Positions 13,537 through 48,609 of a DNA stretch of 50,025 bases are shown one piece after another (position 1 is the stretch's first letter; each line of letters starts with the position of its first letter). The position numbers and the translations under genes are program-made. This DNA comes from Candidatus Competibacteraceae bacterium (GTDB taxonomy: Bacteria; Pseudomonadota; Gammaproteobacteria; Competibacterales; JAHEDQ01), in the NCBI GenBank assembly GCA_024641125.1, contig JAHEDQ010000006.1, positions 1-50,025 on the forward strand. The letters are read 5' to 3'. Under the pieces are notes generated by a model that saw nothing but the letters and a program-made list of their open reading frames with translations, had not been told where the DNA came from and made no database searches.

Positions 13537-13539
13537 GGA

Positions 13540-15807: not shown

Positions 15808-16634
15808 TCCCCCAGGTAGACTTCGACAACCCGGGGATCGTTCTGGACCTGCTCCATACTGCCTTCGGCCAGTACCCGGCCCTGGTGCAGCACCGTGACC
15901 GTGTTGGCGATCGAACGGACAAAATCCATGTCATGCTCAACCACCACTACCGTGTGCTGGCCCGCCAACGAATTCAGCAACTCGGCGGTCCGGTCCATTT
16001 CCTGGTGGGTCATGCCGGCCACGGGCTCGTCCACCAGCAGCAGCTTCGGGTTCTGCATCAGCAGCATACCGATCTCCAGCCACTGTTTCTGCCCATGGGA
16101 AAGCGCCCCGGCGCGTTCCCGTCTCGCGTCGGCCAGGCCAATGAGGTCCAACACCTGGTCGATGCGATCACGCTGCTCCCCGTTGAGCCGGGCGTAAAGC
16201 GTCGGCCAGACCCGCTTGTCGCCGGCCATGGCCATTTCCAGGTTCTCAAACACCGAGTGCTGCTCGAACACGGTGGGCTTCTGGAATTTGCGGCCGATGC
16301 CGGCCTCGGCGATCTCCGATTCGTTCAATCGCAACAGATCAATACGCTGCCCGAACCAGGCGCTGCCCTGGTCGGGACGCGTTTTGCCGGTGACGATGTC
16401 CATCATCGTCGTCTTGCCCGCGCCATTGGGCCCGATGATGCATCGCAGTTCGCCGGCGCCCACGTAGAGATTCAAGTCATCGATGGCCTTGAATCCGTCG
16501 AAACTGACGGTGAGGCCCTCCAGATAAAGGATAGTGCCATGGCTGACGTCCAGTTCCAGACCCGTCTTCGGCACCATGAAATCGAATACCCGGTCCCGAC
16601 GAACCTGCTCACGCAGGGTATCCAGCGGCTTCAT
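15804..16634 (-). CDS. urtD: urea ABC transporter ATP-binding protein UrtD
   Basis: A LivG-type ATPase of 276 residues. After a leader of about 45 residues come ILYLEGLTVSFDGFKAIDDL, Walker A GPNGAGKTTMMD, the UrtD-typical GIGRKFQKPTVFE, signature LSHGQKQWLEIG and Walker B LLLVDEPVAGMT. ATG at 16634 overlaps the urtC stop (ATGA); the frame upstream to 16727 lies in urtC and is rejected. Confidence 0.95.
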   Translation of the reverse strand: MKPLDTLREQVRRDRVFDFMVPKTGLELDVSHGTILYLEGLTVSFDGFKAIDDLNLYVGAGELRCIIGPNGAGKTTMMDIVTGKTRPDQGSAWFGQRIDLLRLNESEIAEAGIGRKFQKPTVFEQHSVFENLEMAMAGDKRVWPTLYARLNGEQRDRIDQVLDLIGLADARRERAGALSHGQKQWLEIGMLLMQNPKLLLVDEPVAGMTHQEMDRTAELLNSLAGQHTVVVVEHDMDFVRSIANTVTVLHQGRVLAEGSMEQVQNDPRVVEVYLGE

Positions 16635-17719: not shown

Positions 17720-17722
17720 CGC

Positions 17723-19372: not shown

Positions 19373-19416
19373 ACTGAGTGTGGATCTGCGGTTGAGGATG
19401 AAACCAAGAAGTCAGT

Positions 19417-19443
19417 GGAGGGCGCCTTCGGACGGCGCCCTCC
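19417..19443 (-). terminator. strong hairpin between urtA and urtB
   Basis: Perfect ten-base arms, GGAGGGCGCC and GGCGCCCTCC, with a seven-base loop, 15 bases past the urtA stop. No T-run follows on the minus strand, so it is more likely a partial terminator or an mRNA 3'-end stabiliser. Either would keep urtA product above permease and ATPase levels, as is usual for binding-protein genes. Confidence 0.6.
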
Positions 19444-19458
19444 TGGTCAAGACTCAGA

Positions 19459-27401: not shown

Positions 27402-27426
27402 CGCGCGCACATCCGAAGAACGTTAA

Positions 27427-27450
27427 AGAGCCCCGGCGATGCGGGGCTCT
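27427..27450. terminator. hairpin between convergent rdgC and PEP-CTERM gene
   Basis: Nine-base arms (AGAGCCCCG and CGGGGCTCT) with a six-base loop, 25 bp past the rdgC stop. On the minus strand the stem is followed by a short T-run, so it may serve both converging genes. Confidence 0.65.
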
Positions 27451-27463
27451 CTGAACGCTGTGG

Positions 27464-28183
27464 CTATGATGCTTGGGCGTTTAGCTTTCGCCGCCCGAAA
27501 CCGACCACACCGAGCAAGCCCGAACCCAGAAGCCAAACCGCACCCGGCAGGGGTACTGGACTTCCGGCAAGCTCGTAGCTTCCGTTGCCGGTCTGCCATT
27601 TGGTCGCGAATGTATCGAGGGTTATGCTCGCCCCAGCCTTAAAATCTCCCATGAGTGCGACCATGAACGCGTCAGTTCCACCCGGGTTGAGGCTTTCTCC
27701 CGGATTGCCGCCACCGGCGCAATTGGGGCCGGTGAAAAAGCAGGCATCCGTCGAAAAAGCAGGGAAGTTGTCAGTGGCTGCGCCATCAAACGTGGTCCCC
27801 CCTGAGATGCGGGCACTGTCGACAGTGTTGTTGCCCGTCGTCAGTCCCAGCGCCGTCAAGCTAAGGCGCTCGCCGTAGCTGCCCCTCACTGTCGTATTCT
27901 TGAGCGAAATGCCCAGCTTGATTGAACCGTTGTTGATTTCTCTGACCGTAAATTTCCCTGTCGCGCGCAAGGCCACCGGCAATGAATTATTATCGCTGTT
28001 CTGTGTATTGGCCGGAAGCAGCCAGTTCACCGAGAACATGTCTCCTACGGCCAGGTCGGTAACCTGATATACGTTGGAGGTGGCCGGATTGCCTCCAGAA
28101 TTGCCCGAAAAGCCAATGGAGTAGGCCTGAGCTGTTGACGCCAGGGCCAAACTCACCATGGCCAATCCGATTTGCTTGTACAT
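27464..28183 (-). CDS. exported protein with PEP-CTERM-type sorting tail
   Basis: A 239-residue secreted protein. A signal peptide (MYKQIGLAMVSLALASTAQA) and a low-complexity, Ser/Thr/Asn/Gly-rich body come first. The C-terminal tripartite signal is VPLPGAVWLLGSGLLGVVGFGRRK: a VPxP motif, a membrane helix and a basic cluster. Such tails are cut by exosortases (EpsH/XrtA group) in bacteria that make extracellular polysaccharide. No exosortase gene is in this window. The body matches no family I recognise. Ribosome site GGGG before the ATG; the A/T-rich leader upstream differs clearly from its surroundings. Confidence 0.8.
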   Translation of the reverse strand: MYKQIGLAMVSLALASTAQAYSIGFSGNSGGNPATSNVYQVTDLAVGDMFSVNWLLPANTQNSDNNSLPVALRATGKFTVREINNGSIKLGISLKNTTVRGSYGERLSLTALGLTTGNNTVDSARISGGTTFDGAATDNFPAFSTDACFFTGPNCAGGGNPGESLNPGGTDAFMVALMGDFKAGASITLDTFATKWQTGNGSYELAGSPVPLPGAVWLLGSGLLGVVGFGRRKLNAQAS

Positions 28184-28535
28184 CTATTTTCCCCGCGAAA
28201 TTTTTTTCAAAACCCTTAGATCGTTAAAGGCCTCGCCAATTCAGCGCGAGTCACGTGCGACCATCCCTCAACCGTTCCAGTCAACCAGAACCGCACACGG
28301 CGCGAATACTTGTTGGACACGATGCTCTGCGTCCCGCTTCAAGCAAGAATCGAGCAATATATTTAACTAACTGTTTAAAAAAGATTTTTTTCAAGATCCC
28401 TCCCTGAGGAAGGACTTCATGCAAAAAAAGCCGACGACCTGACGATCTGCCATCGGGCTCGATTAGAGCAGAGCCATTGAGCGTCTCAGCAACGCAAGAG
28501 ATGGCTGAGCATTCGCGCCCAGGCCTTGGTCGGAA
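28184..28535. other. 352-bp non-coding leader of the PEP-CTERM gene
   Basis: Contains A/T-rich tracts (28366-28392 and 28196-28207) that could act as UP-like promoter elements, and the terminator candidate of the amidase gene. I looked for the sigma-54 promoter pattern often found before PEP-CTERM genes and saw only TTGGCGA without a matching TTGC element. Confidence 0.4.
28423..28459 (-). terminator. candidate terminator of the amidase gene
   Basis: On the minus strand AGCC...GGCT arms with an imperfect inner stem are followed directly by seven T. It lies about 75 bp after the amidase stop. The stem is short and interrupted, hence modest confidence. Confidence 0.4.
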
Positions 28536-29921
28536 TCAGGCGGAAAGCTGAGCCGCCACCGAAAGCAGCGTTGATTCGCATCCGAAACCGGCCTGTAGCT
28601 GCACTGCGACGCCCGGGCGGATGGGTGCGGGAGACAAGGACAGGGCGGGGTGGCCGGTAACGTTGGCGATGGGCGTAAACGGGCAATAGTCATAGGCTCG
28701 GTGAAATGCGGCCAGTGGATCGTCCTGTGCCGGGTCCAGTTCGCCGATTCGAACCGCGGGCTCCGCCAGGGTCGGGGTCAGCCACAGATCATAGTCCAGG
28801 AAAAAACCCGCAATACGGCGCGATATACCCTGGAGCTGCTGCTGGGTCAGCACGAACTCGGTGGCGGAGACGGCGCGCCCGAGTTCGGCCATCGCCATGG
28901 TCAGCGGCTCCAGGGTGTCGCTGGAGGTCTGGATACCGGTCAGAGACGAGATGCCCACCACGCTTTGTGCGGCGCCGACCACCCAGAGCGTGGTAAACAG
29001 CTCGGCAACCCGATCGTGATCGTAATCGGGTGCAGCCTCCTCAACCCAGTGCCCCAGCTCGGACAGGCGGGTTGCGGTCGCCTCAACCGCGGCGACACAG
29101 TCCGGATGAGCGGCAGTGCTCCCGTAATGGGTGCTGAAGCCAACGCGCAACCGGCCCGGATCCCGGGCCGCTGCCTCCAGGAACGTACCTCCGTAGGGGG
29201 GCGCCCAGTACGGATCTCCTAAATCGGGACCGGCGGTGGCATCCAGCAATGCGGCGCTGTCACGAACGGATCGCGTGACCGCATGCTCCACCAGCAAACC
29301 GCCCATAACATCGCCCAGGTCGGGACCCAGCGGTGTCCGCGCCCGAGTCGGCTTGAGTCCGATCAGTCCACAGCAGGCGGCGGGAATGCGAATCGATCCA
29401 CCACCGTCATTGGCATGGGCCATGGCCACCATGCCGGCGGCCACCGCTGCAGCGGACCCGCCGCTTGAGCCTCCGGCACTCAAATCCATGTCCAGGGGGT
29501 TGCGTGTGGGGCCAAAGCGCACGGGTTCAGTGGTCGGCACCAGCCCGAACTCCGGACAATTGGTCTTACCCAGGATAATCAGTCCTGCCCGACGCTGCCG
29601 CTGTACGATCTCGCTGTCATGATCGGGCGTGTATTCTCCGGCCAGCCTGGATCCCCAGGTCAGCCTCACCCCCCCCACTCTGGCGGTGGCGTCCTTAACC
29701 AGAAATGGCACGCCCGTGAATGGACCCTGGGGCAACAATCCGGCGGCGGCCTCCAGTGCGGCATCGAACATCGGTGTGATTACCGCGTTGATATCCGGGT
29801 TGAGCCGCTCGATGCGCACGACCGCCGCTTCAACCAATTCAGACGGATGCACATCGCCGTGCCGGACCCGATCGGCCTGGCCCATGGCATCAAGATCCAG
29901 GAGTTCATCGACAGGGTGCAT
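28536..29921 (-). CDS. amidase-signature-family hydrolase
   Basis: A 461-residue amidase with the Ser-cisSer-Lys triad visible: [12 protein letters not shown] (lysine, about residue 75), [17 protein letters not shown] (cis-serine, about 149) and [22 protein letters not shown] (nucleophile, about 173). Family members cleave carboxamides, from acyl amides to GatA-type glutaminyl substrates. The isolated gene, without gatB or gatC, and the divergent C-terminal half argue for a catabolic amidase of unknown substrate. It is divergent from the GGDEF/EAL gene, with 201 bp between them. Confidence 0.88.
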
Positions 29922-30122
29922 GCAGCTTCAGACCTCGGCTATCGCCCGCGGGAACGGGGCGGCTGTTGCGCCCACCATACAGGGCCTTTCGGCCAGACAG
30001 GATCAGCAATTTCTGGTTCTGTTCTGGTCAATCTCGTCTTGTTCGACGATCCGGCAGACCCGGACAATAGTGCTGCAGATAGCACAATCCCGTCACACCC
30101 AATAGAGTTCCGACCCAGTTTC

Positions 30123-33100
30123 ATGAGAACAAGAACGATCGCAGCACTTCTGGTACTGGTGTCTCTGGCGCTGGGACCATTCGCAGCCTACTACGTGCCG
30201 CAAACGCTGGACCAGTTGCGCGAGTCTTTGGGTGCGCAGGCGGCATCGCGCGCGCAGAGTACCGCCAATGCAGTGGAAAAACGACTGACCTGGTCCGAGG
30301 CCACGGTGGCGCTGCTTGCCGACACAATAGATTTGCCGGAACAGTCTCTCCGAAATCCCGAACCGCAAGCGATCCTGGCGGAACGGCTGGGAAAACTCGC
30401 CTCTGCGGTGGCCCCGAAGCGCCAGGAAATCCAAAATCTCACCATCATCGCCCCCGAGGGGACCGCTCTTTTGCGCTTGAGCCAGCGCGCCGGTGACGGT
30501 CGTCTGGTGTTCGCGCGGAGCGAGGCCGGTGCGATCCAGGGCGCTGACGGCCTGTTCGAGCTGGCCCGAAAGGGCCTGGGTTTCAGCCTTGGTACCGAAA
30601 CGGGGAACGGCGAGCCTAAAGAGCTGTTCATGGTCGCGCCCATGGGGGGCAGCCCGGGCAGTCCAAGAGTCGCTTTGCTGGCCAGCATCAATGTGGACCG
30701 ACTCACAGGTGGGCTTTCGGACAGCTACTGGATCGACGCGTCCGGCACGTACCTGCGGCGTCCTGTGTCTTCAGCCAAAACCGGGACAAACGCATTCACG
30801 GATTTTCCCGGCCTGGAGAACCAACTCAAGATCGGTTCCCGGGCCTGGTGGGGCGACACCACCGCGGTGGGTTGGAGTCGCATGGAAGTGGGCAGCAATG
30901 GGCGCCTGTATACCTGGCTAGGCGAGGTGACCGATCTCGGCCCACTACTCGGTTGGCACAGACAGTCATGGATGCTGATTGGGGGTGCACTAATGGCTGC
31001 GCTTGCCGTGGCGCTGCTGCTAAGCGCCTGGCTTTCTGGACAACTGAAGGCGTTCGGGCAACGGGTCACCGACGGCATGCAACAGTTGCTCAACGGCAGT
31101 GAGCGGGCCCCGTTCGAACCGGTGGGCAGCAAAGAAATGCGCGCGTTCACCGAAGCCCTCAATGGGTTGGCGGAAACCTTCGTCGAATCCCAGACCAACC
31201 GTGCGCTTGCTGCCAGAAAACTGTCTGATGATCACCGAGAGCTCCAACGAGAACTGGATCGGGCGCGGTCCGATCAAGCGCATAGCCGAAGCTTGCTGGA
31301 ATCGCTGGCGCGGCCCGCCTACGCGGTCGACAAAGACGGTCAATGCACCTACTGCAATCCGGCCTGCCTGGGACTGCTCGGTCTGGACAGTGCTGAGCGA
31401 CTGCGCGGCGAGAACATCCAGGACATGATGCTTCGGCGTGCGGTTGCAAACGCGGAGCAACCCAGAGCAGCGGACGGTGTTGCGGCCGCCATTCGGGAGT
31501 GCAAGCCTCAACACGTGGAGAGCGAGGTGATCTGGGGTCAGGACGGCAAAAGACGCTTGGTGGAGTACTGGGCCAGCCCACTCACAGAAGGTGATCAGGT
31601 AACAGGCGCGGTGGTGACCCTGGAGGACATAACCGAACGACAGGACAAGACCGAAGAAATGCAGCGGATGCGCGCGCGCGCGGAGCGCACGCTTGAATCC
31701 ATTGCCGATGGGGTTCTGACAATGGATCCGCAGGGTGTGGTGGACTACCTCAATCCGGCTGGGCAGGCGATTTTGGGCTGGACGGCTGAAGAGGCGCATG
31801 GAAAACCGTTCAATGCGATTTTCCAGGCCGCCGAGCAAAACGGTATAGCAGTCGGTCCGGATGCCCTGGAAACCGGCCTGGAAGACGGACCGGTCGCCCA
31901 GGAACTGATGATTCAGACGCGCCACGGTGAACCGGTTTACCTGGAATGCAGCACCGCACCCGTCATCGGTACCGGTCTACCGCCCGGCGGCGCCATTGTG
32001 GTGTTCCGAGACGTCACCGGAGCGCCGCGCATGGCGCATAGTGCACAGTATGTGGCCAAGCACGACCTCACCACCGGCCTCATCAACCGCCAGGAGTTCG
32101 AGAACCGCCTGAGCCAGGCATTGGCCAATGAGCACACCCGCCAGAGTTCGATTTGCTATCTGGACCTGGATCGCTTTCGGACCATCAATGACGACTGCGG
32201 CAGCGTGGCGGGTGACGCGCTGTTGCGGCAGCTGGCGTCCCTGCTGCGCGCCAATGTGCGGCAGCGAGACCTGGTGGGCCGTCTTGGCGATGATGAGTTC
32301 GGCATCCTGTTGGAACACTGTCCGCCGGACCAGGCACTGAGAATTGCCAGCCTGGTGAGGCAAGCTGTCGAGGATTTCAGCTTCAGTTGGGACGACAAAG
32401 CCTACTCGATCACCGCCAGCATTGGCGTAGTAGAGATCGGAGCGAACGCCCGCGATGCCCGTGATGTCATCGGCAGCGCCGAGGGCGCGTGTTTCGCGGC
32501 CAAAGAACAAGGCAGAAATCGGGTCCGGGCCTTTCATGCTGATGACCATGAACTGACCCGATACGGCCCGACGCACTGGGTTACGCGTCTCAATCAGGCT
32601 CTCGAAGACAACGGCTTTCGACTGTTCTATCAAGCCGTCGTGCCGCTGAGTCGGGCGCCGGGCGCGCAGCGGGACCGCCACTATGAGCTTCTGCTTCGCA
32701 TGAAAGACCCGACCGGCAATCTGGCCAATGCCGCCACCTTCCTGCCCTTCGCAGAACGCTACAACATGATCCAGTTGATGGATCGATGGGTGGTACGTGC
32801 GGCCTTCGAATGGCTATCGACGCGGCCCAAGGACGCAGGCGATGTGTTGATCGAGGTCAAGGTGTCCGAAGCGTCGGTAGCCGACGCCGACTTCGCCGAC
32901 TATGTGCAGATTCAGCTGGAAAAGCTGCACATACCGCCACGGTGGATTTGCTTTCAGATTGGGGCTGGCGCGGTGGTGTCCCGGCCAGCCAATGCTACCC
33001 AACTGGTTCGATCTCTGCGCGGCTTCGGTTTCAAGATTTCCCTTGACGATCTAGGTGGGCGCCTGCTCTCCGTAGTCCAAATCCGAAATCTCGAAGTGGA

Positions 33101-33332
33101 TTTTCTGCGCATTGACGCCACCCACACCGGCCGGGTGGTGGAAGACGAACTGGACCGGACACTGGTCAAGGCCATGACCGAAATCGCGCGCATCAGCAAC
33201 CGCCGAACCATCGCCAAAATGGTTGAACAGGATGAAGCCCTGACCGTGCTTAGAGATCTGGGCGTCGACTGCGCCCAAGGATTTGCGATCTCTAAACCAA
33301 GGCCGCTTGAGTTCCTCAAAAAGGACGGTTAG
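30123..33332 (+). CDS. membrane PAS-PAS-GGDEF-EAL protein with degenerate EAL domain
   Basis: About 1069 residues. A membrane helix at 5-27, a periplasmic sensor of about 250 residues (Cache-like by position), a second helix near 282-303 and a HAMP-like stretch are followed by two PAS domains (about 387-506 and 520-640). The GGDEF domain starts at HDLTTGLINR; its motif reads GDDEF near 722, with an RQRD inhibitory site five residues before. The EAL domain begins YELLLR near 854. It keeps the LDD pair and the AQG glutamine but lacks the INLS asparagine (EVKVSE), the EITE glutamate (CFQIG) and the KID lysine (LRIDA), so phosphodiesterase activity is doubtful. The frame is open upstream to 29619, antisense to the amidase gene; ATG 30123 starts the membrane helix. 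Likely a c-di-GMP-responsive regulator. Confidence 0.88.
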   Translation: MRTRTIAALLVLVSLALGPFAAYYVPQTLDQLRESLGAQAASRAQSTANAVEKRLTWSEATVALLADTIDLPEQSLRNPEPQAILAERLGKLASAVAPKRQEIQNLTIIAPEGTALLRLSQRAGDGRLVFARSEAGAIQGADGLFELARKGLGFSLGTETGNGEPKELFMVAPMGGSPGSPRVALLASINVDRLTGGLSDSYWIDASGTYLRRPVSSAKTGTNAFTDFPGLENQLKIGSRAWWGDTTAVGWSRMEVGSNGRLYTWLGEVTDLGPLLGWHRQSWMLIGGALMAALAVALLLSAWLSGQLKAFGQRVTDGMQQLLNGSERAPFEPVGSKEMRAFTEALNGLAETFVESQTNRALAARKLSDDHRELQRELDRARSDQAHSRSLLESLARPAYAVDKDGQCTYCNPACLGLLGLDSAERLRGENIQDMMLRRAVANAEQPRAADGVAAAIRECKPQHVESEVIWGQDGKRRLVEYWASPLTEGDQVTGAVVTLEDITERQDKTEEMQRMRARAERTLESIADGVLTMDPQGVVDYLNPAGQAILGWTAEEAHGKPFNAIFQAAEQNGIAVGPDALETGLEDGPVAQELMIQTRHGEPVYLECSTAPVIGTGLPPGGAIVVFRDVTGAPRMAHSAQYVAKHDLTTGLINRQEFENRLSQALANEHTRQSSICYLDLDRFRTINDDCGSVAGDALLRQLASLLRANVRQRDLVGRLGDDEFGILLEHCPPDQALRIASLVRQAVEDFSFSWDDKAYSITASIGVVEIGANARDARDVIGSAEGACFAAKEQGRNRVRAFHADDHELTRYGPTHWVTRLNQALEDNGFRLFYQAVVPLSRAPGAQRDRHYELLLRMKDPTGNLANAATFLPFAERYNMIQLMDRWVVRAAFEWLSTRPKDAGDVLIEVKVSEASVADADFADYVQIQLEKLHIPPRWICFQIGAGAVVSRPANATQLVRSLRGFGFKISLDDLGGRLLSVVQIRNLEVDFLRIDATHTGRVVEDELDRTLVKAMTEIARISNRRTIAKMVEQDEALTVLRDLGVDCAQGFAISKPRPLEFLKKDG

Positions 33333-38843: not shown

Positions 38844-40163
38844 TCAGGTGATCAACTCGGCAACCAGTGCATCGCCGGCGGCCGATAGCCCCGTGAGCCG
38901 GGCCCTGCCAATCTGGCCGGCAAGGCCAGGGTCAGCCCGAGGCGGCAACAGAACGCGAAAATAGGCCGGCGTGTACCCGGCATGATACCAGCTGTCCCCA
39001 TTGCGGGTGCCGTGTTCCCACAGAATCGGCTCGCACCTGCCGACCCGATCTGCCAGCGCCTGGCCTTTCATGCGTTTACCCAGGCGGTGCAGTTCCCGGC
39101 TGCGATGCTGCTGGAGGCTTCGCGAAACCGGATCAGGAAGGCCGGCGGCCTTGGTGCCGGCCCGGGGTGAGTAGGAAAATACGTGCAGGTGCCCGAAGCC
39201 GACCCGCTCGACGAACTCCAGGGTGTCGGTCCACTCGGATTCTGTCTCACCCGGGAAACCCACAATGATGTCGGTGGTGACGTTAAAGCCCGGCACACAC
39301 TCCCGCAGGCGTTCCACCAACCGGGCATAGGCTTCGGTTTTGCAACGCCGGGCCATGCGTTTGAGCACCGTGTCCGACCCGCTTTGCAGCGGCAGATGCA
39401 TATGCGGCATCAGACGGGAGTCTTGGAACAGGTCGAGGAATTCCTCCCCCAGATCCCACGGTTCAACCGAAGCGAAGCGAATACGCGGCATGTCGGTGTC
39501 GCTCAGCAGGGCCCGAACCAACTCGGACAGCGAACCGCCGATGTCGCTGCCGTAGCCACCGACATGCACACCGGTCAGTACCGCCTCACGCACCCCCTGG
39601 GCATGGAGGGCGTTGATCTCGGACACCACCTCCGCCACAGGTCGACTGTGTTCCGCGCCCCGCGCCACGGTCACGATACAAAAAGTACAGCGATAACGGC
39701 ACCCGTCCTGGATTTTCACGAAAGCCCGGCCCCGGCCCAGGGTGAGCAGCGTGGAGGCGCCCGGCTCCGTAGCCAGGGCAGGCATCCCCGGAAGTCCTAG
39801 CTCGCGCGTGGCGATTTCCACCAGTCTGGACTTTTCCTGGTTAGCCACCACCAGATCGACGCCGTGTTCAGCGGCCGCCGCGCCGGACTCCAGGGTGGCG
39901 TAACAGCCCGTGACCACGAGACGCGCCTGGGGATTGGCCCGGTGCACCCGCCGCATGATCTGACGGGATTTCCGAACCGCCTCCAACGTCACCGCACAGG
40001 TGTTCAAGACCACCAGATCGGCATCGGTCGCAGCTTCGGCCAGCTGATGGCCCTGTTGTTCAAATTGCCGGGCCCAGGTCTGCAATTCCGCCTCGTTGAG
40101 CCGGCAGCCCAGGGAGCGTAGATGAACACGTAGCGGCGCTACTGCCTGGTGATTCTGTACCAT
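38844..40163 (-). CDS. mtaB: tRNA methylthiotransferase MtaB
   Basis: A 439-residue radical-SAM enzyme that adds the 2-methylthio group to t6A37 in tRNAs reading ANN codons. The N-terminal UPF0004 domain has HLRSLGCRLNEAE, VLNTCAVT and VVTGCYAT (three cysteines for one cluster). The radical-SAM motif is GCRYRCTFCIV, followed by RFASVEPWDL, LPLQSGSDTVLKRM and a TRAM-like tail. HLRSLGCRLNEAE and CRYRCTFC are the MtaB rather than MiaB pattern. ATG 40163 is chosen over the frame to 40448, which would overlap the methyltransferase gene. Confidence 0.93.
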   Translation of the reverse strand: MVQNHQAVAPLRVHLRSLGCRLNEAELQTWARQFEQQGHQLAEAATDADLVVLNTCAVTLEAVRKSRQIMRRVHRANPQARLVVTGCYATLESGAAAAEHGVDLVVANQEKSRLVEIATRELGLPGMPALATEPGASTLLTLGRGRAFVKIQDGCRYRCTFCIVTVARGAEHSRPVAEVVSEINALHAQGVREAVLTGVHVGGYGSDIGGSLSELVRALLSDTDMPRIRFASVEPWDLGEEFLDLFQDSRLMPHMHLPLQSGSDTVLKRMARRCKTEAYARLVERLRECVPGFNVTTDIIVGFPGETESEWTDTLEFVERVGFGHLHVFSYSPRAGTKAAGLPDPVSRSLQQHRSRELHRLGKRMKGQALADRVGRCEPILWEHGTRNGDSWYHAGYTPAYFRVLLPPRADPGLAGQIGRARLTGLSAAGDALVAELIT

Positions 40164-40233
40164 TGAATGCTGCCCCTGGGGCGCGGGCGGGGCGCCGTCG
40201 TCGGAACCAATACGGGTGCCGCGTGCCAGTGTC

Positions 40234-41253
40234 TCAGGCCTTGTCGAAAACGTAATGGTTGACCTGCCACTCCCGCCCCTGGTCATACCCGAAAAGCTCC
40301 GCGCAGGCCATGAAAAACACCCGCCATCGCTGCACCCAGCGCTCGGCATCCTCTCCATAGGTCTGCCGGAACAGCGCCAGGATCGGATCGCGCTGATGGT
40401 CCATCTGTGACAGCCAGGCTTCGCAGGTCCGTTGATAGTGGCTGCCATCCACAGTCCACCGGTTGTTCAAACGCAGATCATCCTGGAAGTGGGTGAGCAA
40501 CGCCTCGCTGGGCATCAGGCCTCCACTGAAAAAATGCCGGCCCATCCAGTTGTCATCGCCCTCGGTCTCGAACGGATAACTGTAGTGGCGGTGGGTGAAT
40601 ATATGCACGAACAGCCGGCCGTCCGGCCGCAGCCATGCGCCGATGCGGGCCATGAGGGCCTGATAGTTGCGCATGTGTTCGAACATCTCCACCGACACGA
40701 CGCAATCAAAGCGCTGGTCGGTGGAAAATTCATTGACGTCGGCCACCTGGGCATTGATGTTGCCCAGCTCACGGGCCTCGGCCCGGCGCTGAATGGTTTC
40801 GATCTGCGGTGCCGAATTGCTCAGGGCAACGATGCGGCTGTTGGGATAATGCGCTGCCATCCACAGAGTCAGGGACCCCCAACCGCAGCCAAGTTCCAGA
40901 ATATCCATGCCGTCGACCAGCCCGGCCCGCTCGCAGGTCAGCGCCAACATCGCTTCCTCAGATTGAGCCAGGTTGTTGACACCTGAAGGCCAGTAACCCG
41001 AGCTGTATTTCAGATGAGGGCCGAGTACGCGCTGGAAAAACTCGGGCGGCACCTCGTAGTGCTGCTCGTTCGCCTTGTCGGTTTCGATGGCGATGGGGCT
41101 GTTACGCAACTCGTTCACAAGTTCGGCCTGCCGCAATTCCGGGTCGCCGCTTGCCTGCTCCCGAAGCCGGTCACGCAGCAGCTTGCGGATGCCCGCCCGG
41201 GTGACCCAGTCGGGCATGAGGCCCCGTTCAATCAACTCAACAGCCGTTCTCAT
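40234..41253 (-). CDS. cyclopropane-synthase-like SAM methyltransferase (second copy)
   Basis: A 339-residue class I methyltransferase of the Cfa group, but without the long N-terminal lipid-binding domain of the classic enzyme. HYEVPPEFFQRVLGPHLKYSSGYW replaces the usual HYD...MTYS opening. The SAM site is ILELGCGWGSLTLWMA, followed by VSVEMFEHMRNYQALM and FVHIFTHRHYSYPFE. ATG 41253 overlaps the DUF1295 stop (ATGA), so the two are translationally coupled and probably act together. Likely substrate: an unsaturated acyl chain of a phospholipid, not proved. Confidence 0.85.
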   Translation of the reverse strand: MRTAVELIERGLMPDWVTRAGIRKLLRDRLREQASGDPELRQAELVNELRNSPIAIETDKANEQHYEVPPEFFQRVLGPHLKYSSGYWPSGVNNLAQSEEAMLALTCERAGLVDGMDILELGCGWGSLTLWMAAHYPNSRIVALSNSAPQIETIQRRAEARELGNINAQVADVNEFSTDQRFDCVVSVEMFEHMRNYQALMARIGAWLRPDGRLFVHIFTHRHYSYPFETEGDDNWMGRHFFSGGLMPSEALLTHFQDDLRLNNRWTVDGSHYQRTCEAWLSQMDHQRDPILALFRQTYGEDAERWVQRWRVFFMACAELFGYDQGREWQVNHYVFDKA

Positions 41254-42032
41254 GGGCGCGTCTCCGTGGGGAACCAAGGGAAAAACATGGAAGTACTGCG
41301 CTGGTACGCGGCGTAGTCTTCACCCCGGCTGGCCAGCGCACGGCGCTCTGTGTGGGGAATGCCGGTGAGGTAGTAGAGCACCAGAAACATCATCACCGGA
41401 CCCAGCAGCCCGAGCCAGCCTAGGGGTCCGCCCAAGGTCAGGGGGACATAGGCCCACCAGTGCAGCCACTCAAAGAAGTAGTTGGGATGACGCGAGTAGC
41501 GCCACAGGCCGCTGCGGCAGGTCTTACCGAGGTTTTCCGGGCGAGCCCGAAAGTCGGCCAGTTGCCGGTCCGCCAGCGTCTCACCGCCCACCGCCACCAA
41601 CCAGATGACAACCGCCAGGACACTGGCCCAGACTGGTCCCGCCTCTGGACGCTGCACCGCTGCCGCCCAAGGCAGGGCGAGCGCGACCGCAGCCACCGCC
41701 TGAAATTGAAAAAACGCAAAAAAACCCAACTGTGCCCGTTCACCCAGCCAGGCGCGCATGTCCACGTAGCGCCCATCTTCTTCGGAGCCACCGACACGTC
41801 GCCACAAATAGAACCCAAGCCGCAGCCCCCAGGCCGCGCCGAGGATGCCGATCAGAACACGCTGGCCGGGGTCTCCGTCGCCCAGCACGGCGAACAGAAC
41901 TGCCAATGCAGCCATGCCGAAGGACCAGCCCACATCCACCCAGCCGGCGTTGCCGCTGCGCCACTGCCAAAGCCACACGAGCGTCATCAGGACCGCAAGC
42001 ATCACGAGACCGGATACCATCAACTCGGCCAT
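41250..42032 (-). CDS. DUF1295 membrane protein, steroid-5-alpha-reductase-like
   Basis: A 260-residue polytopic protein with about six helices. The C-terminal NADPH-binding pattern of the ICMT/5-alpha-reductase group is LWRYSRHPNYFFEWLHWWAYV, with LGKTCRSG before it and HTERRALASRGEDYAAYQRSTS at the end. The family includes enoyl reductases, so reduction of a lipid double bond is a reasonable idea. ATG 42032 has GAGG eight bases upstream. It follows DUF2878 by 82 bp and overlaps the second methyltransferase. Confidence 0.85.
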   Translation of the reverse strand: MAELMVSGLVMLAVLMTLVWLWQWRSGNAGWVDVGWSFGMAALAVLFAVLGDGDPGQRVLIGILGAAWGLRLGFYLWRRVGGSEEDGRYVDMRAWLGERAQLGFFAFFQFQAVAAVALALPWAAAVQRPEAGPVWASVLAVVIWLVAVGGETLADRQLADFRARPENLGKTCRSGLWRYSRHPNYFFEWLHWWAYVPLTLGGPLGWLGLLGPVMMFLVLYYLTGIPHTERRALASRGEDYAAYQRSTSMFFPWFPTETRP

Positions 42033-42114
42033 GCGTGCGCCTCTATGCACCGCCCGCCGGTTGCCGTCACACGCACCGCGGCAAGCCCCGACCGACTAAG
42101 GAATGCGCCGGCGC

Positions 42115-42663
42115 TCATGCGGCGACCCGTCCACCGGCACGGGGCATCGCCCAGGCACTGAAGAAGGTGAGCGCCAGCATTGCTCCGCCCCAGACCAGTG
42201 ACAAGGCGGCAATCGCGGCGCCTTTCGGGGCCAAAAACTCCGCGGCGCCCAAGGCGGCGCCGCCGGCATAGGCCAGAGGACCACCCACCACACCCATAAG
42301 TACGGCCCAGATCGGGTGCGATTGTATCCAGGACATGGACCGGGTAAGGGTGACGCCGAAAACCAGCCACAGGGCACTGATCCAAAGCGGCGCCCAGGGT
42401 TGGGGCCAGACGGCTCCCTGGAAATGGATCAATCCGGCGCTGACCAGCACAGAGTCCAGCGCGGTTCCCATCAACACGATTCCGATCAGCATACGTGCCT
42501 CGCGGCCCCAATTCGGATTGCGCCACAAATAAAAGAGCGCGATCGCGCTGGAGACCACGGGGCCCAGCCAGGCCAAACCATGGGCGGCACCCAGGACGCA
42601 GCAAAACCAACCGAGTTGAAACAGGGCCACGTTGAGCAGGGTGGCGGGGAGAGACGCAACCAT
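42115..42663 (-). CDS. DUF2878-family membrane protein
   Basis: A 182-residue protein with five or six hydrophobic helices starting NVALFQLGWFCCVLGAAHGLAWLG, containing WRNPNWGREARMLIGIVLMGTALDSVLV near 47 and WAPLWISALWLVFGVTLTRSM near 90. I assign it to DUF2878 on these patterns and its usual place after a Cfa gene. The function is unknown. It starts 5 bp after the cyclopropane-synthase stop. Confidence 0.8.
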   Translation of the reverse strand: MVASLPATLLNVALFQLGWFCCVLGAAHGLAWLGPVVSSAIALFYLWRNPNWGREARMLIGIVLMGTALDSVLVSAGLIHFQGAVWPQPWAPLWISALWLVFGVTLTRSMSWIQSHPIWAVLMGVVGGPLAYAGGAALGAAEFLAPKGAAIAALSLVWGGAMLALTFFSAWAMPRAGGRVAA

Positions 42664-42668
42664 GGCGG

Positions 42669-43934
42669 TCAGGGCCGGCTCGACCGGTAATCGGCTTTTT
42701 CAAAAACCACCTGAACTGTGCCGATCGCACGCTCCTGAAACCCACCTTCGCAGTAGCTGAGATAGAAATTCCAGAGTCGTGCGAAGCGATCACCGAAACC
42801 AAGCTGACGCACTGCCTGCAGACGGTCATTGAAGCGCTGGCGCCAATGTCTGAGCGTAGTGGCGTAGTGCAGCCCGATGTCCTCCAGATGCTGGACTCGA
42901 AGGTCGGATGCCTGCCCTACGGCACGCATCATGGCCGAAACCGACGGCAGACATCCGCCGGGAAAAACATAGCGCTGTATAAAGTCCACTTCCCGCTTGG
43001 CGCGTTCGAACTCGGACTCGGCGATGGTGATGGACTGCAACAGCATCAGACCGTCCGATTTCAGAAGACGGCTGCAGGTCTCGAAATAGGTATCGAAGTA
43101 CTGATGCCCAACCGCCTCGAACATTTCGATGGATACGAGCTTGTCGTATTGGCCTTGCAGATCCCGGTAGTCCTGACACAGCACGGTGACGCGGTCCTCA
43201 AAACCTGCTTCGCTGACCCGCGTCCGGGTGAAATCGTACTGCTCCCGGGAAATTGTCGTGGTGGTGACATGGCAACCGCAGTGCGCGGCCGCATGCAGTG
43301 CAAAACCTCCCCAACCGCCCCCCACTTCCAGTACCCGGTCGTCGGGTGACAGGGCCAGCTTGTCGCAAATCCGCTGGTATTTCGCGTGCTGAGCGGTCTG
43401 CAGGCTGGTGTCGACCTGTTCGAATATGCCGCAGGAGTAGGTCATGCTGTCGTCCAGCCACAATCGGTAGAAGGCGTTGCCCAGATCATAGTGGGCCGCG
43501 ATGTTCTCCTCGCTGCCACGGCGGGTATTGCGTCGCAGTGCATGAAACAGCTTGAGCATGGGCGTGGTCAGACGGCTCAGCCCTCCCTCCAGGGATTCCA
43601 TGACCGAGCGATTGAGCACCAGCAGGCGCACGACTGCGGTAAGGTCATCGCAGTCCCACCAGCCCAACATGTATGCTTCGCCAGCCCCCACGGTGCCGCG
43701 CAAAGCGATCCGGCTGTAGACCCGCGCATCATAGATGTAGACCCGGGCCGTTGGGTCCGCTTCGCTGCCAACCGCCCCGAAATCGTGCTCGCCGTCCGCA
43801 TCGTGTATCGCCAACCGGCCCCGAGTCATGTCACGCAGACGACGGAACACGAGCCTGCGCAGATAGCGATCGGCCGGTCGGGCCGGTGCTCCAATCTCCG
43901 CCGGTACCTCAGCCGGAACGATGGATACTCTCAT
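42669..43934 (-). CDS. cfa: cyclopropane-fatty-acyl-phospholipid synthase
   Basis: 421 residues, full length for Cfa. The N-terminal lipid-binding domain (about 1-120, with GEAYMLGWWDCDDLTAVVRLL) is followed by HYDLGNAFYRLWLDDSMTYSCGIF near 146, the SAM site VLEVGGGWGGFALHAA near 195, SIEMFEAVGHQYFDTYF near 262 and VFPGGCLPS near 318. The reaction is transfer of a methylene from SAM to a cis double bond of membrane lipid, or a related methylation. ATG 43934 lies inside the DUF1365 gene (26-bp overlap) with GGAAGGG just upstream. Confidence 0.92.
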   Translation of the reverse strand: MRVSIVPAEVPAEIGAPARPADRYLRRLVFRRLRDMTRGRLAIHDADGEHDFGAVGSEADPTARVYIYDARVYSRIALRGTVGAGEAYMLGWWDCDDLTAVVRLLVLNRSVMESLEGGLSRLTTPMLKLFHALRRNTRRGSEENIAAHYDLGNAFYRLWLDDSMTYSCGIFEQVDTSLQTAQHAKYQRICDKLALSPDDRVLEVGGGWGGFALHAAAHCGCHVTTTTISREQYDFTRTRVSEAGFEDRVTVLCQDYRDLQGQYDKLVSIEMFEAVGHQYFDTYFETCSRLLKSDGLMLLQSITIAESEFERAKREVDFIQRYVFPGGCLPSVSAMMRAVGQASDLRVQHLEDIGLHYATTLRHWRQRFNDRLQAVRQLGFGDRFARLWNFYLSYCEGGFQERAIGTVQVVFEKADYRSSRP

Positions 43935-44709
43935 GTCCCTTCCTCATGTTCGTCGATCGGTGTTTAGGATGGTCGATGACCGGAAGCCGCTTCAGCCAGA
44001 GCTTCGTGGCCTCCCAGTGGATAGCCAGAATGACTTTCAGAGTCATAAATGGATGAATCAGCAGGGCACGGGCAAGTGCGGCCCCGGTAATGGCTTCACG
44101 ATCCAGCAGCAAGGTGGCGTCGAACAGCCTGCCGCGGTCATCGTGGTTGGCCATGTGTACCATGAGATCCTCCGCCGGCGCGGTGGATCGCCATTCATAG
44201 TTCATGTCCATCTCCATAAAGGGCGACACATGGAACGCCTTGGCGAAGCGATGCCGCTGGTGTTCTGGCTGTGCGCCGGCATTCTCCGACGCATCCAACA
44301 CGTAGCAGTGACGCTCGCCCCAAGGGGTGTTGGTGACCTCGGCCACCAGGGTTTCCACCTGCTTATCCGCGTCATCGAAGCAGTAGTAAATGCTGATCGG
44401 GTTGAAGCAGTAGCCGAAGTGCCGGAGATGAGTCAGCAGGCGAATGGGGCCTGTCGGACGGCGCCCGGTGCGCGTACTCACCAACTCGCGCACCGCCGTA
44501 TCCAGAGGAATTTTGGGGTCGCCGAAGTGATCCCCACGACGAAACCAGGCAATGGCGAAGCGGCGGCAGGACCAGAACCAGCGCCCGGCGAAAACCCGAT
44601 CCAACTCGCTGAGATCGATATAGGCCATAAACAGGCGATATCGGAACTCGTGGTCTACGGGACGCACCCGTCGATGTCGAACCCAACCACGGTACAGGGC
44701 GCTGTTCAC
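43909..44709 (-). CDS. DUF1365-family protein
   Basis: A 266-residue protein opening NSALYRGWVRHRRVRPVDHEFRY, with IRLLTHLRHFGYCFNPISIYYCFD near 90, EVTNTPWGERHCYVL near 122, FHVSPFMEMDMNYEW near 158 and a hydrophobic C-terminal helix. All are diagnostic of DUF1365, a family nearly always found between a flavin oxidoreductase and a Cfa gene. In Rhodobacter-type clusters it belongs to the singlet-oxygen (RpoE-ChrR) response. GTG 44709 overlaps the oxidoreductase stop (GTGA). Confidence 0.9.
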   Translation of the reverse strand: MNSALYRGWVRHRRVRPVDHEFRYRLFMAYIDLSELDRVFAGRWFWSCRRFAIAWFRRGDHFGDPKIPLDTAVRELVSTRTGRRPTGPIRLLTHLRHFGYCFNPISIYYCFDDADKQVETLVAEVTNTPWGERHCYVLDASENAGAQPEHQRHRFAKAFHVSPFMEMDMNYEWRSTAPAEDLMVHMANHDDRGRLFDATLLLDREAITGAALARALLIHPFMTLKVILAIHWEATKLWLKRLPVIDHPKHRSTNMRKGHESIHRSG

Positions 44710-45959
44710 GCGGCAAGATCCCGTTCATCCATCAGCGCGTCACCGACGATCCGCCCACTTTGAAAGCCATCTTCGTGAAAACCGTAGGTCCAGTAGGCGC
44801 CGCAGTACCAACTGCGATTGACACCGCTGATCTCTTCCCTGCGCTCGCGCGCCCGAGCCGCTTCCGGGGTATACAGGGGGTGAGCGTAGTCGATCCGCTG
44901 AATGACACGATCGGGGTCGATTTCACCCTGATAGTTCAGGGTGACGAAGAACGTCTCCGGCGCATCGAGACATTGCAGACTGTTCATGTCGTAGGTCACC
45001 GCCACCCGGCTTTGCGGTTCGGGCGGCACGTGATAGTTCCACGCAGCCCAGGCCAGGCGTCGGCGCGGCATCAGGCGGGGATCGGTGTGGAGAACCGCCT
45101 CGTTGTTCTGGAACGGAAGCGCACCCAGAACTTCCCGTTCGGCAGCGCTGGGATCCTCCAACAGGGCCAGGGCCTGATCGCTGTGGCAGGCAAGAACAAC
45201 CTGGTCGAACGCCGCATTTTCCTGATCGGTGGTCACCAGCACACGGTCCGGCCTGCGAACGACGCGCCGCACCGGCATCGCCAGACGGATACGATCCCGA
45301 AAGGGCGCGGCCAGGGCTTCGACGTACTCACGAGATCCCCCGACGACGCTGCGCCACTGGGGACGATCGTTCACGGTCAGGAGACCGTGATTGCGAAAGA
45401 ATTCAATAAAACCCAAAGCGGGGAACTGTTCGATTCTGTCCGGGCAAGCCGACCAGATGGCCGCGCCCATGGGCAGCAGATAGCGATTTCGGAACAACGC
45501 GCCGTAGCGCCCCTGCTCCAAAACCTCCCCGAGCGTGGTGGCAGAATCCAGTTCGCCCATAAGCCGGGGCGCCTCCCGGTTAAAGCGCAGAATGTCCCGC
45601 AACATTCCGTAGAACTGAGGTCGAACCAGGTTGCGCCGTTGCGCGAACAAGGTATTCAGGGTATCCCCGTTGTACTCCAAACCGGATTGCTCGCACCGAA
45701 CGCTGAAGGTCATGGCCGTGTCTTGCGAGGCAACTCCCAGATCTCGCAGCAGGGCGCTGAACCCCGGATAGTTGCGGTCATTGAAAACGATGAATCCGGT
45801 ATCTATCGCATAACTCTTGCCCGCCAGCGGGACATCAATCGTGTTCACGTGGCCGCCGAGGTGGCCACCCGCTTCGAACAGGGTGATGTCGTGACGTTGG
45901 TGGAGCCGATGTGCGACCGTCAGCCCCGAGATGCCACCACCAATGATCGCAATCCTCAT
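44706..45959 (-). CDS. FAD-dependent amine-oxidase-like oxidoreductase
   Basis: 417 residues. The N-terminal dinucleotide fold is IAIIGGGISGLTVAHRLHQ followed by LFEAGGHLGGHVNTID (GG-doublet of the amine oxidase/phytoene desaturase group). The C-terminal end includes GVNRSWYCGAYWTYGFHEDGFQSG, which closes the FAD site. Homologues accompany DUF1365 and Cfa, and probably act on a fatty-acyl chain. ATG 45959 is weakly preceded by a ribosome site; an open frame that ends in an ATGA overlap with it is discussed as a finding. Confidence 0.88.
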   Translation of the reverse strand: MRIAIIGGGISGLTVAHRLHQRHDITLFEAGGHLGGHVNTIDVPLAGKSYAIDTGFIVFNDRNYPGFSALLRDLGVASQDTAMTFSVRCEQSGLEYNGDTLNTLFAQRRNLVRPQFYGMLRDILRFNREAPRLMGELDSATTLGEVLEQGRYGALFRNRYLLPMGAAIWSACPDRIEQFPALGFIEFFRNHGLLTVNDRPQWRSVVGGSREYVEALAAPFRDRIRLAMPVRRVVRRPDRVLVTTDQENAAFDQVVLACHSDQALALLEDPSAAEREVLGALPFQNNEAVLHTDPRLMPRRRLAWAAWNYHVPPEPQSRVAVTYDMNSLQCLDAPETFFVTLNYQGEIDPDRVIQRIDYAHPLYTPEAARARERREEISGVNRSWYCGAYWTYGFHEDGFQSGRIVGDALMDERDLAA

Positions 45960-46109
45960 GCCGACGTCCGACTCGTGACCAGCCTCGGCAATCCCCAGCG
46001 CCGTTCCAGCGGAGCGGCGTCTCTTCTAATGAGTGCCTGAGTCTCCAGCGCGCATGTGCGAACGCCAAGCCAGCCCTCCCGGGCAGCCACGAACTTGATA
46101 GACAGGACA

Positions 46110-46526
46110 CTACAGCCGCGCCTTGATCCGGCGAATGATGGCTCCAAGCACCGGCACCCGCTCGTAGATGAACTCGCCCATATCGAAGTAGTCCCGGTGC
46201 CGGTGGACGCGATCGGCGAAGTGAATGTGAGACAGCCCGCTGAGGGTGATCTCCTGGCCCCGGCGGAAAGTCCCGTGCCGGACATGCATGACCCAGGGAA
46301 TGACCGCCTGGGTCGCGTCCTCCATGCCCGGTTGATATTCGAAACGGCAGCTGAGTACGTCCTGATACAAATTTGCATAGTAGTCACGGAGGACATTAAG
46401 GCCGCATATTTCACGTACGGGATCCTGGAAGTGCACGTCATCGGCATAAATTTCCGACAAGCGATCGAGACAATCGGCGTCGAGCTCATTAAATGTGGCT
46501 TTAAATTTTTCAACAAATGGATACAT
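46110..46526 (-). CDS. NTF2/SnoaL-like small protein
   Basis: A 138-residue protein with the cone-shaped NTF2 fold pattern: FVEKFKATFNELDADCLDRLSEIYADDVHFQDPVREICG at the start and an HIHFADRVHRHRDYFDMGEFIYERVPVLG end. Such proteins bind small hydrophobic ligands or have weak catalytic roles. In related lipid clusters one precedes the oxidoreductase gene, often with an SDR between; no SDR is present here and 150 bp separate the two genes. Likely the first gene of the operon; the 140 bp upstream show no clear promoter consensus. Confidence 0.8.
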   Translation of the reverse strand: MYPFVEKFKATFNELDADCLDRLSEIYADDVHFQDPVREICGLNVLRDYYANLYQDVLSCRFEYQPGMEDATQAVIPWVMHVRHGTFRRGQEITLSGLSHIHFADRVHRHRDYFDMGEFIYERVPVLGAIIRRIKARL

Positions 46527-46666: not shown

Positions 46667-47713
46667 TCAGCAATCGGCACAGGCCGGTGCCGCCAGTTCG
46701 ATGCGCTCGCCGGCACGAAAAACGGTTAACCGAACGGGATCGGACGGTGACTTGTCGCCCATGCGTTTCCGGATCGCAAGATAGGCTTGGCGACCTGCTA
46801 TGGGAATGCCCTCCACCTCCAGGATGACATCTCCGCCCAGAAGCAGGCTGTCGCCGTCGATCGTGATTTCGATACTGCCCTCCCTGAGACCCAATCGCTC
46901 GGACATGGACCCACGGGCCACCCGCTGCACCAGAATGCCCGCACTCTGGGGAAGATTAAGGGCCTCGGCAAGCGGCCCCCGAATATACCTGCCTTCCAGA
47001 CCGGACCAACGCCGTTCCTGGGCCAGCAGCTGGTCCCGCACGGTATTCGACGCCACCGCAAAGCCCAGCCCTTCGTTGCCACCCGAGGTAGATTCGATAT
47101 GGCTGACAATACCGATCAGCTGGCCGTCAAGATTGAACAAAGGCCCACCAGAGTTACCCTGATTGATGGCGGCATCGGTCTGCAGATATTCACCCAGGCC
47201 AAATCCACCATCCAGGGAGTCCGCTGGGCGGCGGGCGCTGATGTGGCCCACTGTCAGCGTGTGTGAGATACCGTAGGGCGCGCCCACCACAAACACCTCC
47301 TCGCCCACGCGAACGGTATCGGAGTCGGCCAGAACGACGGGGTTGATCCCTTCGGGCACATTGCTGAGTTGAATCAAGGCAACATCCGCCATGGGCTCCG
47401 AGGCGATCACCCGGGCCAGTGCCTGGTCGCCGTTAACAAACTGCACGTGTATCGAATCCGCGGTCTGCACCAGGTGTGAAGCGGTCAACGCCTGGCCGTC
47501 GTCGGAGATCAAAACCCCGGATCCCAGACCCGCGGCGCGACTGGGTCGATCAGGATCACTGCCGGGCCGGTGTTTGTAGGCCTCGATGATCAGCACCGCC
47601 GGTTCAACCCGGTCAAAGGCATCACTCAAATCCGTGGCCAAGGCGAAGCATGGGCAGCAAATGACCGCGGGTGCAATCGCCAGTCGGGCGACGAGTTCGG
47701 TGACGCGGTTCAT
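46667..47713 (-). CDS. trypsin-like serine protease with one PDZ domain (HtrA/Deg family)
   Basis: 348 residues. A signal or anchor segment (LAIAPAVICCPCFALA) is followed by the protease domain with TASHLVQTAD (His), MADVALIQL (Asp) and INQGNSGGPLF (Ser), all intact. A single PDZ domain starts near AGILVQRVARGSMSERLGLREG. The layout is like DegS, but a cleavable signal cannot be excluded. It would act on misfolded or signal proteins in the periplasm. ATG 47713 overlaps the kinase stop by four bases (ATGA); the frame to 47851 is inside that gene. Confidence 0.9.
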   Translation of the reverse strand: MNRVTELVARLAIAPAVICCPCFALATDLSDAFDRVEPAVLIIEAYKHRPGSDPDRPSRAAGLGSGVLISDDGQALTASHLVQTADSIHVQFVNGDQALARVIASEPMADVALIQLSNVPEGINPVVLADSDTVRVGEEVFVVGAPYGISHTLTVGHISARRPADSLDGGFGLGEYLQTDAAINQGNSGGPLFNLDGQLIGIVSHIESTSGGNEGLGFAVASNTVRDQLLAQERRWSGLEGRYIRGPLAEALNLPQSAGILVQRVARGSMSERLGLREGSIEITIDGDSLLLGGDVILEVEGIPIAGRQAYLAIRKRMGDKSPSDPVRLTVFRAGERIELAAPACADC

Positions 47714-48609
47714 GAGATCTCCGAAAGCAGCCGATCGAGCATCGACTCCGCCTGGGACAGGTAGCCGGCCCCGAACAGATTCAAATGATTCAGGATGTGA
47801 TAGAGATTGTACAGCGTGCGCCTCAGTGGATAGCCCTCGTCCAGCGGCCAAGCCGCCTGATATGCCGCGTAAAATTCCCGGCTCAGCCCACCGAACAGTT
47901 CAGTCATGGCAAGATCCGCTTCGCGGTCGCCATAGTAACTGGCCGGATCATAAATGACCGGACGGCCCTGGGCGTCATAGCCGATGTTGCCGGACCAGAG
48001 GTCACCGTGGAGCAAAGACGGCACAGGACGATGCCCACCGAGCAAATCGGGCAGCGCATCCTGCAACCGCGCGCCCCGATCAGCGAGACGCGCCGCGAAT
48101 CCGCGGGATGCCGCCAGCTCAAGCTGAAAACCCAGACGATGCTCTGACCAGAACGCGACCCAATCCCGGGAAAACGCGTTGGGCTGCGGGGTGGTCCCCA
48201 GCATATTGTCCCGCACCCAACCGAATTGGTCGCCCGTGGCGCGGTGCAGGGACACCAGCTCGCCGCCGAAACGGGCCTCAGAATCCCGTCGCGGCGGCCC
48301 GAGCGCGATATACTCCAGGACCAACCAGGCGTGTTGACCCTCGCTGCCGGTGCAGACCGGTTTGGGCACCCGAACCGGACCGGCATCATATAGCGTAGCT
48401 AGGGCCGCCGCTTCGTTCATCAGCGCCGGCAAAAAGTCCGCTCGGTTGACCTTCACGAAGAAGGCGTCGTGACCGTCAGACAATCGATAGGCTTCGCTTA
48501 TGCAGCCACCGCTCAGAGGCTGGGGCCGATCCGGGTCGAAGGCCGTACCGGTCTCACCACGGATCTGGTCTATCAGAGGAATCCAGTCGATCAAAGAAGG
48601 TGTGGTCAA
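47710..48609 (-). CDS. fructosamine-kinase-family protein
   Basis: 299 residues with the aminoglycoside/fructosamine kinase fold: PLSGGCISEAYRL glycine loop, AFFVKVNRADFLPALMNEAAAL, WLVLEYIALG hinge, and the catalytic LLHGDLWSGNIGYDAQGRPVIYDPASYYGDREADLAMTELFGG. Members phosphorylate sugar-modified amines on proteins to remove glycation. The start codon is TTG at 48609 with no good ribosome site; no better in-frame start was found nearby. Its stop overlaps the start of the serine protease gene. Confidence 0.9.
   Translation of the reverse strand: MTTPSLIDWIPLIDQIRGETGTAFDPDRPQPLSGGCISEAYRLSDGHDAFFVKVNRADFLPALMNEAAALATLYDAGPVRVPKPVCTGSEGQHAWLVLEYIALGPPRRDSEARFGGELVSLHRATGDQFGWVRDNMLGTTPQPNAFSRDWVAFWSEHRLGFQLELAASRGFAARLADRGARLQDALPDLLGGHRPVPSLLHGDLWSGNIGYDAQGRPVIYDPASYYGDREADLAMTELFGGLSREFYAAYQAAWPLDEGYPLRRTLYNLYHILNHLNLFGAGYLSQAESMLDRLLSEIS

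Follow-up and report, generated by a model that had tools for sequence, protein, structure and literature searches.

A single operon predicted to encode dimethyl furan fatty acid formation in a Candidatus Competibacteraceae bacterium, and the DUF1295 protein that accompanies FufM

Which lipid is made when two Cfa-like enzymes are encoded beside a flavin oxidoreductase, a DUF1365 protein and two further membrane proteins? The question was raised by a gene set of Candidatus Competibacteraceae bacterium (assembly GCA_024641125.1, contig JAHEDQ010000006.1), located in a stretch of 50,025 nucleotides that is called the window here. An earlier note, made from the letters alone, had described a lipid-modification operon of the singlet-oxygen and furan-fatty-acid type, and our analysis bore this out. 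Homologues of UfaD, UfaO and UfaM were recognised by identity, clade and active-site letters. Bacteria and plants, and perhaps also algae, produce furan fatty acids, a known group of protectants against light and oxygen stress that scavenge singlet oxygen. We consider it likely that the operon encodes a complete route by which phospholipid-bound acyl chains are converted into a dimethyl furan fatty acid (9D5-FuFA type). The core chemistry of this route was published in 2020, whereas its arrangement in a single operon and the link with DUF1295 are new. The lipid gene set comprises seven intact genes on the minus strand (46526-40234), listed below with the gene that follows them.

46110-46526, minus strand: SnoaL/NTF2-like protein, first gene (138 amino acids; PF12680, 49 bits)
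44706-45959, minus strand: UfaD homologue, predicted FAD-dependent fatty-acyl desaturase (417 amino acids; PF01593/PF13450)
43909-44709, minus strand: UfaO homologue (DUF1365), predicted furan-forming monooxygenase (266 amino acids, GTG start; PF07103, 289 bits)
42669-43934, minus strand: UfaM homologue, predicted S-adenosylmethionine (SAM)-dependent fatty-acyl C-methyltransferase (421 amino acids; PF02353, UfaM clade, active-site letters)
42115-42663, minus strand: DUF2878 membrane protein (182 amino acids; PF11086, 129 bits)
41250-42032, minus strand: DUF1295 membrane protein with a sterol/steroid-reductase-like fold (260 amino acids; PF06966, 230 bits; PF02544, 29 bits)
40234-41253, minus strand: FufM homologue (second Cfa-like protein), predicted second ring methylation (339 amino acids; PF02353, clade like coclaurine N-methyltransferase)
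38844-40163, minus strand: mtaB, t6A tRNA methylthiotransferase, a radical SAM enzyme (TIGR01579, 371 bits against a cut-off of 357)

The first Cfa-like protein is a predicted UfaM and not a cyclopropane synthase, because it belongs to the UfaM clade and has the E/A/Q active-site letters. It was 42-44% identical to Rhodopseudomonas UfaM, whose gene adjoins UfaD/UfaO, and in a tree of 96 proteins (quick method, SH-aLRT support) the two were placed in one clade (support 99, 35 rows) that left out E. coli Cfa, Rhodopseudomonas Cfa and the same genome's own Cfa on contig C101. E236, A240 and Q266 (E. coli Cfa numbering) were present in all 33 UfaM-type sequences, that of the window included, and G236, H240 and H266 in the five true Cfas examined (5/5), the protein of contig C101 included. 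In E. coli Cfa, bicarbonate is bound by E239, H266 and Y317 and accepts the proton whose loss closes the cyclopropane ring (PMC11387697). The window UfaM retained E239 and Y317 while Q replaced H266; the loss of this ligand would thus fit a product in which the methyl is kept and the double bond is shifted. The product expected of a UfaM acting on cis-vaccenate is 11Me-12t-18:1. The letters E236/A240/Q266 are a simple means against mis-annotation of UfaM as cyclopropane synthase, and VC1122 of V. cholerae may be a case of such mis-annotation.

Both the FAD amine-oxidase-type protein and the DUF1365 protein adjoin UfaM in the window, and they are the predicted UfaD and UfaO, respectively. The former was 47% identical to the Rhodopseudomonas flavoprotein adjoining UfaO and UfaM (L178, L179), and the latter was 34-36% identical to Rhodopseudomonas UfaO, with PF07103 occurring as a single copy in the window's genome. 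According to genetics in R. palustris and R. sphaeroides and in vitro work, UfaM, UfaD and UfaO are sufficient for the formation of 9M5-FuFA (PMC7380195). In two related loci, a fatty acid desaturase gene (PF00487) was located directly upstream of UfaD (L189:4988-5935, plus strand; L197:13855-14802, minus strand), and it is possible that this enzyme supplies the unsaturated substrate there.

The second Cfa-like protein is most likely a FufM homologue, which would add the second methyl to the furan ring. Its best PDB match was coclaurine N-methyltransferase (CNMT; 6gkv, E 8e-71), compared with 2.5e-31 for E. coli Cfa. It was 46-48% identical to Rhodopseudomonas proteins inferred as FufM and grouped with them in the tree (support 100, 56 rows); E236, H240, H266 and F268 were common to the window protein and these counterparts. 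FufM-type proteins have H266 and Y317, where CNMT has E and F. A scan of named genomes placed a FufM homologue in eight named Rhodopseudomonas loci (L096-L101, L153, L156). Three R. palustris proteins were considered in the original work, namely RPA3082, RPA2569 (UfaM) and RPA0924 (FufM) (PMC7380195). In R. pentothenatexigens, exactly three strong CMAS-family proteins were found: one Cfa, the UfaM adjoining UfaD/UfaO, and a CNMT-like protein about 46% identical to the window's second Cfa-like protein, the three matching RPA3082, RPA2569 and RPA0924, respectively. Since this CNMT-like protein is the only one left of the three, it was assigned as FufM by elimination. Recombinant FufM (RPA0924) supplied with SAM produced 9D5-FuFA in cell-free extract, and 18:1 was not methylated by the purified enzyme (PMC7380195). 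Furthermore, an identity of 38% has been reported between FufM and AT4G33110/LIME1, a plant protein that was given the name AtFUFM1 (PMC10940516). AT4G33110/LIME1 is taken here to belong to the CNMT-like group. In one genome (G031), two FufM homologues were present on separate contigs (L009 and L028; second copy at G031:C324), and the cluster of L028 was without DUF1295.

That the two Cfa-like enzymes would be true cyclopropane synthases was rejected for both on the tree and the active-site letters. An ordinary cyclopropane operon, in which both proteins would cyclopropanate phospholipids and the other genes would play an accessory part, is highly improbable. It is true that PF02353 matches both proteins, and that Halomonas UfaM overexpressed in E. 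coli raised cyclic acids somewhat (PMC12089945). However, the window UfaM is without the ligand H266 and has E236/A240 as known UfaM does, the second protein is of the CNMT/FufM type, and an ordinary Cfa with the letters G/H/H is already encoded on contig C101 of the same genome.

Do the seven genes form one unit? The claim that the genes overlap at most junctions was too strong. Three of the six junctions overlap (UfaD/UfaO by 4 nucleotides, UfaO/UfaM by 26 and DUF1295/second Cfa by 4), and the remaining three are gaps of 150 (SnoaL-UfaD), 5 (UfaM-DUF2878) and 82 nucleotides (DUF2878-DUF1295). Two unrelated transcription units with separate functions, divided either between SnoaL and the rest or between UfaD-UfaO-UfaM-DUF2878 and DUF1295-FufM, could be suspected from the two wider gaps and from Rhodopseudomonas, where the halves are at separate genome sites. 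We regard such a division as unlikely, as the genes are on the same strand, in the same order and contiguous in many relatives, and co-occurrence across genomes (see below) shows a shared pathway even where the halves are apart. Among 20 same-order loci, fetched because they carried a FufM or UfaM homologue, 12 had both homologues in one cluster, and in 11 of these 12 DUF1295 stood directly before FufM; the operon is thus an established unit whose gene order is not due to chance. At its downstream end, mtaB follows after 70 nucleotides on the same strand. No MtaB match was found within ~4 kb of the cluster in any of the 40 longer related loci, and mtaB was rejected as an operon member for this reason. 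The lipid gene set ends at 40234 and mtaB is outside it. The interval first proposed (38844-46526) does contain the seven genes that were named, all of them intact and on one strand, but its left edge wrongly took in mtaB, which had not been listed.

DUF1295 is a regular and overlooked partner of FufM, which is new here. Co-occurrence was counted in 398 other genomes of the phylum, with Fisher tests in which shared ancestry was ignored. A FufM homologue was present in 32 of them. Full-length DUF1295 was found in 28 of these 32 carriers against 44 of the 398 genomes overall (p 2e-27), and DUF1365 in 29 of 32 against 152 of 398 (38%; p 2e-10). Judged by coordinates, DUF1295 was within ~0.6 kb of FufM in 21 carriers and DUF1365 within ~6 kb in 19. 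In each of the eight named Rhodopseudomonas loci (8/8), the gene immediately before fufM is DUF1295, and the two are neighbours in 54 of the 80 loci from the named-genome scan, with Bradyrhizobium accounting for nearly all exceptions. In the window, the stop codon of the DUF1295 gene overlaps the fufM start. RPA0923 is contiguous with RPA0924 (fufM), as judged from the construct design in PMC7380195, and is therefore very probably DUF1295. It was deleted alone and together with fufM, and in the main text only the strain and plasmid tables mention it (PMC7380195). Our literature search, in which 14 papers contained the word DUF1295, found none tying it to furan lipids. The earlier note had treated the DUF1295-methyltransferase pair as coupled and had suggested a differently methylated product, and this part stood. 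Far from being peculiar to this genome, the pair is a common unit, sometimes accompanied by rpoE-chrR (L199, L202). The coupling turns a family without known function into a testable one.

What could DUF1295 do? The best Foldseek matches of its model (pLDDT 96) were delta14-sterol reductase (4quv; E 2.5e-3, probability 1.0) and the steroid 5-alpha-reductases 7c83 and 7bw1, with ICMT ranking below these sterol/steroid reductases in the whole-fold comparison, and PF02544 (steroid dehydrogenase) was above its cut-off (29 bits). The invariant D155 and N184 align with an Asp and an Asn of steroid 5-alpha-reductases, which we take to be NADPH contacts; ICMT also matches locally. It is improbable that the protein is an ICMT-type SAM-dependent membrane methyltransferase helping lipid methylation rather than a reductase. 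ICMT 4a2n was its top PDB sequence match (E 1.4e-4), but this match covered just the C-terminal third, which holds the RHPxY motif, whereas the whole fold and PF02544 favour the sterol/steroid reductases. From fold and linkage, we tentatively regard DUF1295 as most likely a membrane reductase that would use NADPH and work on the same lipids, not in methylation itself; since FufM makes 9D5-FuFA with SAM in cell-free extract, the methylation should proceed without a reductase. Oxidation of furan acids yields dioxoenes (PMC12595405). Dioxoenes are enones, the kind of substrate handled by the 5-alpha-reductase-like fold. The hypothesis that we find most attractive is that DUF1295 would reduce or recycle furan lipids that have been oxidised. 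We tentatively propose that DUF1295 could be an unrecognised furan-lipid enzyme of bacteria and algae, an NADPH-dependent membrane reductase acting on the furan acid or its derivative. In one form of this proposal, reduction of the enone C=C would detoxify the dioxoene or let the 1,4-diketone re-close to the furan, so that the scavenger is recycled.

A reductase beside a methyltransferase also recalls the mycobacterial 10-methylstearate pair. The operon could make a monomethyl furan and, separately, a saturated methyl-branched acid, the second methyltransferase methylating a double bond and DUF1295 reducing the methylene/alkene. The reductase-like fold, the overlap of 4 nucleotides between the two genes and the methyltransferase-plus-reductase logic described for 10-methylstearate (PMC5660069) agree with this arrangement. 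However, the methyltransferase groups with inferred FufM, which acts on furan, purified FufM was inactive on 18:1 (PMC7380195), and UfaO is present in 29 of the 32 carriers of the methyltransferase, so that we hold a methyl-branching pair to be unlikely.

For the dimethyl furan route, the following course is predicted. The substrate would be phospholipid-bound cis-vaccenoyl or similar chains, whose double bond would be methylated by UfaM (43934-42669). UfaD (45959-44706) would desaturate the product to a methyl diene, UfaO (44709-43909) would form the monomethyl furan by inserting a single oxygen derived from O2, and FufM (41253-40234) would put the second methyl on the ring, resulting in the dimethyl furan. 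All four reactions have been demonstrated with homologues from R. sphaeroides and R. palustris (PMC7380195), and we infer that the window enzymes would carry out the same reactions at the same chain positions. The window lipid would serve as a singlet-oxygen or photo-oxidative scavenger. Several points weigh against this reading. The identity of FufM rests on clade membership and on elimination in a close relative, and plant members of the wider clade N-methylate alkaloids, so the family alone does not tell the substrate. Three Bradyrhizobium-like genomes carry a FufM homologue without DUF1365, the co-occurrence statistics ignore shared ancestry, and the gaps of 150 and 82 nucleotides leave room for internal promoters. 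An operon holding the whole predicted dimethyl furan route would be a handy production cassette.

For DUF2878 (model pLDDT 88.6), the fold search brought up nothing significant in the PDB, where an Insig homologue came closest (E 1.6). In the same-order relatives L016-L021, L030 and L032, the position immediately ahead of UfaD is likewise taken by the SnoaL gene, and a SnoaL/NTF2 gene is also first in the Aeromonas operon (PMC10012899). The locus had been put forward as a candidate for unfamiliar chemistry. As to the second methylation predicted for FufM, this did not hold, for the reaction is already published (PMC7380195); only DUF1295, DUF2878 and SnoaL stand outside the predicted route.

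No regulator gene was found next to the operon in the window, and in the genome (94% complete) the best TIGR02451 score for ChrR was 25 bits against a cut-off of 124.5. The earlier note was thus right that the usual regulator pair is missing beside the operon. Two candidates for a hidden ChrR were rejected: the Cupin_7 match on contig C170 is a double-cupin protein of 232 amino acids without the anti-sigma part, and the match on contig C18 is another cupin protein. The neighbourhoods of homologues, which the earlier note had advised checking for rpoE/chrR, contain the pair in some cases: L199 has rpoE-chrR-DUF1295-FufM next to UfaD-UfaO-UfaM, and L202 has rpoE-chrR inside the cluster. A ChrR-type cupin was present in L196. 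In L198 (9410-13893, minus strand), FufM has a MerR-type B12-binding regulator of the light-sensor type beside it, in a furan cluster that also includes a lipocalin and a DUF6134 protein. A sigma-70 promoter scan found no site, where about two were expected by chance. In five same-order relatives an SDR gene is divergently upstream of the cluster; none is in the window operon.

Elsewhere in the window, a DegP/HtrA-type serine protease gene (46667-47740) lies directly upstream of the SnoaL gene on the same strand, preceded by a fructosamine-kinase-family gene (47710-48609). Urease genes (UreG-type cobW, urease alpha subunit, UreD) adjoin a branched-chain-type ABC transporter, whose binding protein is of the Peripla_BP_5 family, at ~9944-20751; by appearance this is an ordinary cluster for urea uptake and urease. 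About 2.2 kb (27402-29618) without any open reading frame picked by codon score precedes a large PAS-GGDEF-EAL protein (29619-33332).

Parts of the arrangement are known from other organisms. For example, Halomonas sp. YLGW01 also has consecutive ufaD-ufaO-ufaM outside the Alphaproteobacteria, although neither FufM nor DUF1295 was reported in that cluster (PMC12089945). The Aeromonas/Vibrio operon NTF2-SDR-FAD oxidoreductase-DUF1365-cfa-DUF2878 (PMC10012899; V. cholerae VC1122-VC1123, PMC5241685, PMC12971978) shares the first and middle genes with the window, DUF2878 included. However, no DUF1295-FufM pair was reported there, and its SDR gene is missing from the window operon. VC1122 of V. cholerae was induced by blue light (PMC5241685, PMC12971978). 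In Chlamydomonas, CFA1, CFA2, DUF1365, DUF1295 and DUF2177 were induced by singlet oxygen through SAK1 (PMC4067076). These are unlinked nuclear genes and no furan lipid was reported there, but the CFA, DUF1365 and DUF1295 families recur, a likeness by family annotation only, and CFA2 bears the second annotation coclaurine N-methyltransferase (PMC4067076), which makes it FufM-like. DUF2177, a member of this Chlamydomonas set, was also seen as a membrane protein inside one UfaD/DUF1295/FufM cluster (L192:11175-11717, minus strand). The closest comparison is with the R. sphaeroides/R. palustris pathway (PMC7380195); the window organism and Rhodopseudomonas belong to the same phylum (Pseudomonadota) and to different classes. 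There the genes are at separate sites, whereas in the window a single operon unites them with DUF2878 and SnoaL, and rpoE-chrR is not part of it. Nevertheless, all four enzyme families are shared, the active-site letters of UfaM and FufM are as in Rhodopseudomonas, and in both fufM is directly preceded by DUF1295.

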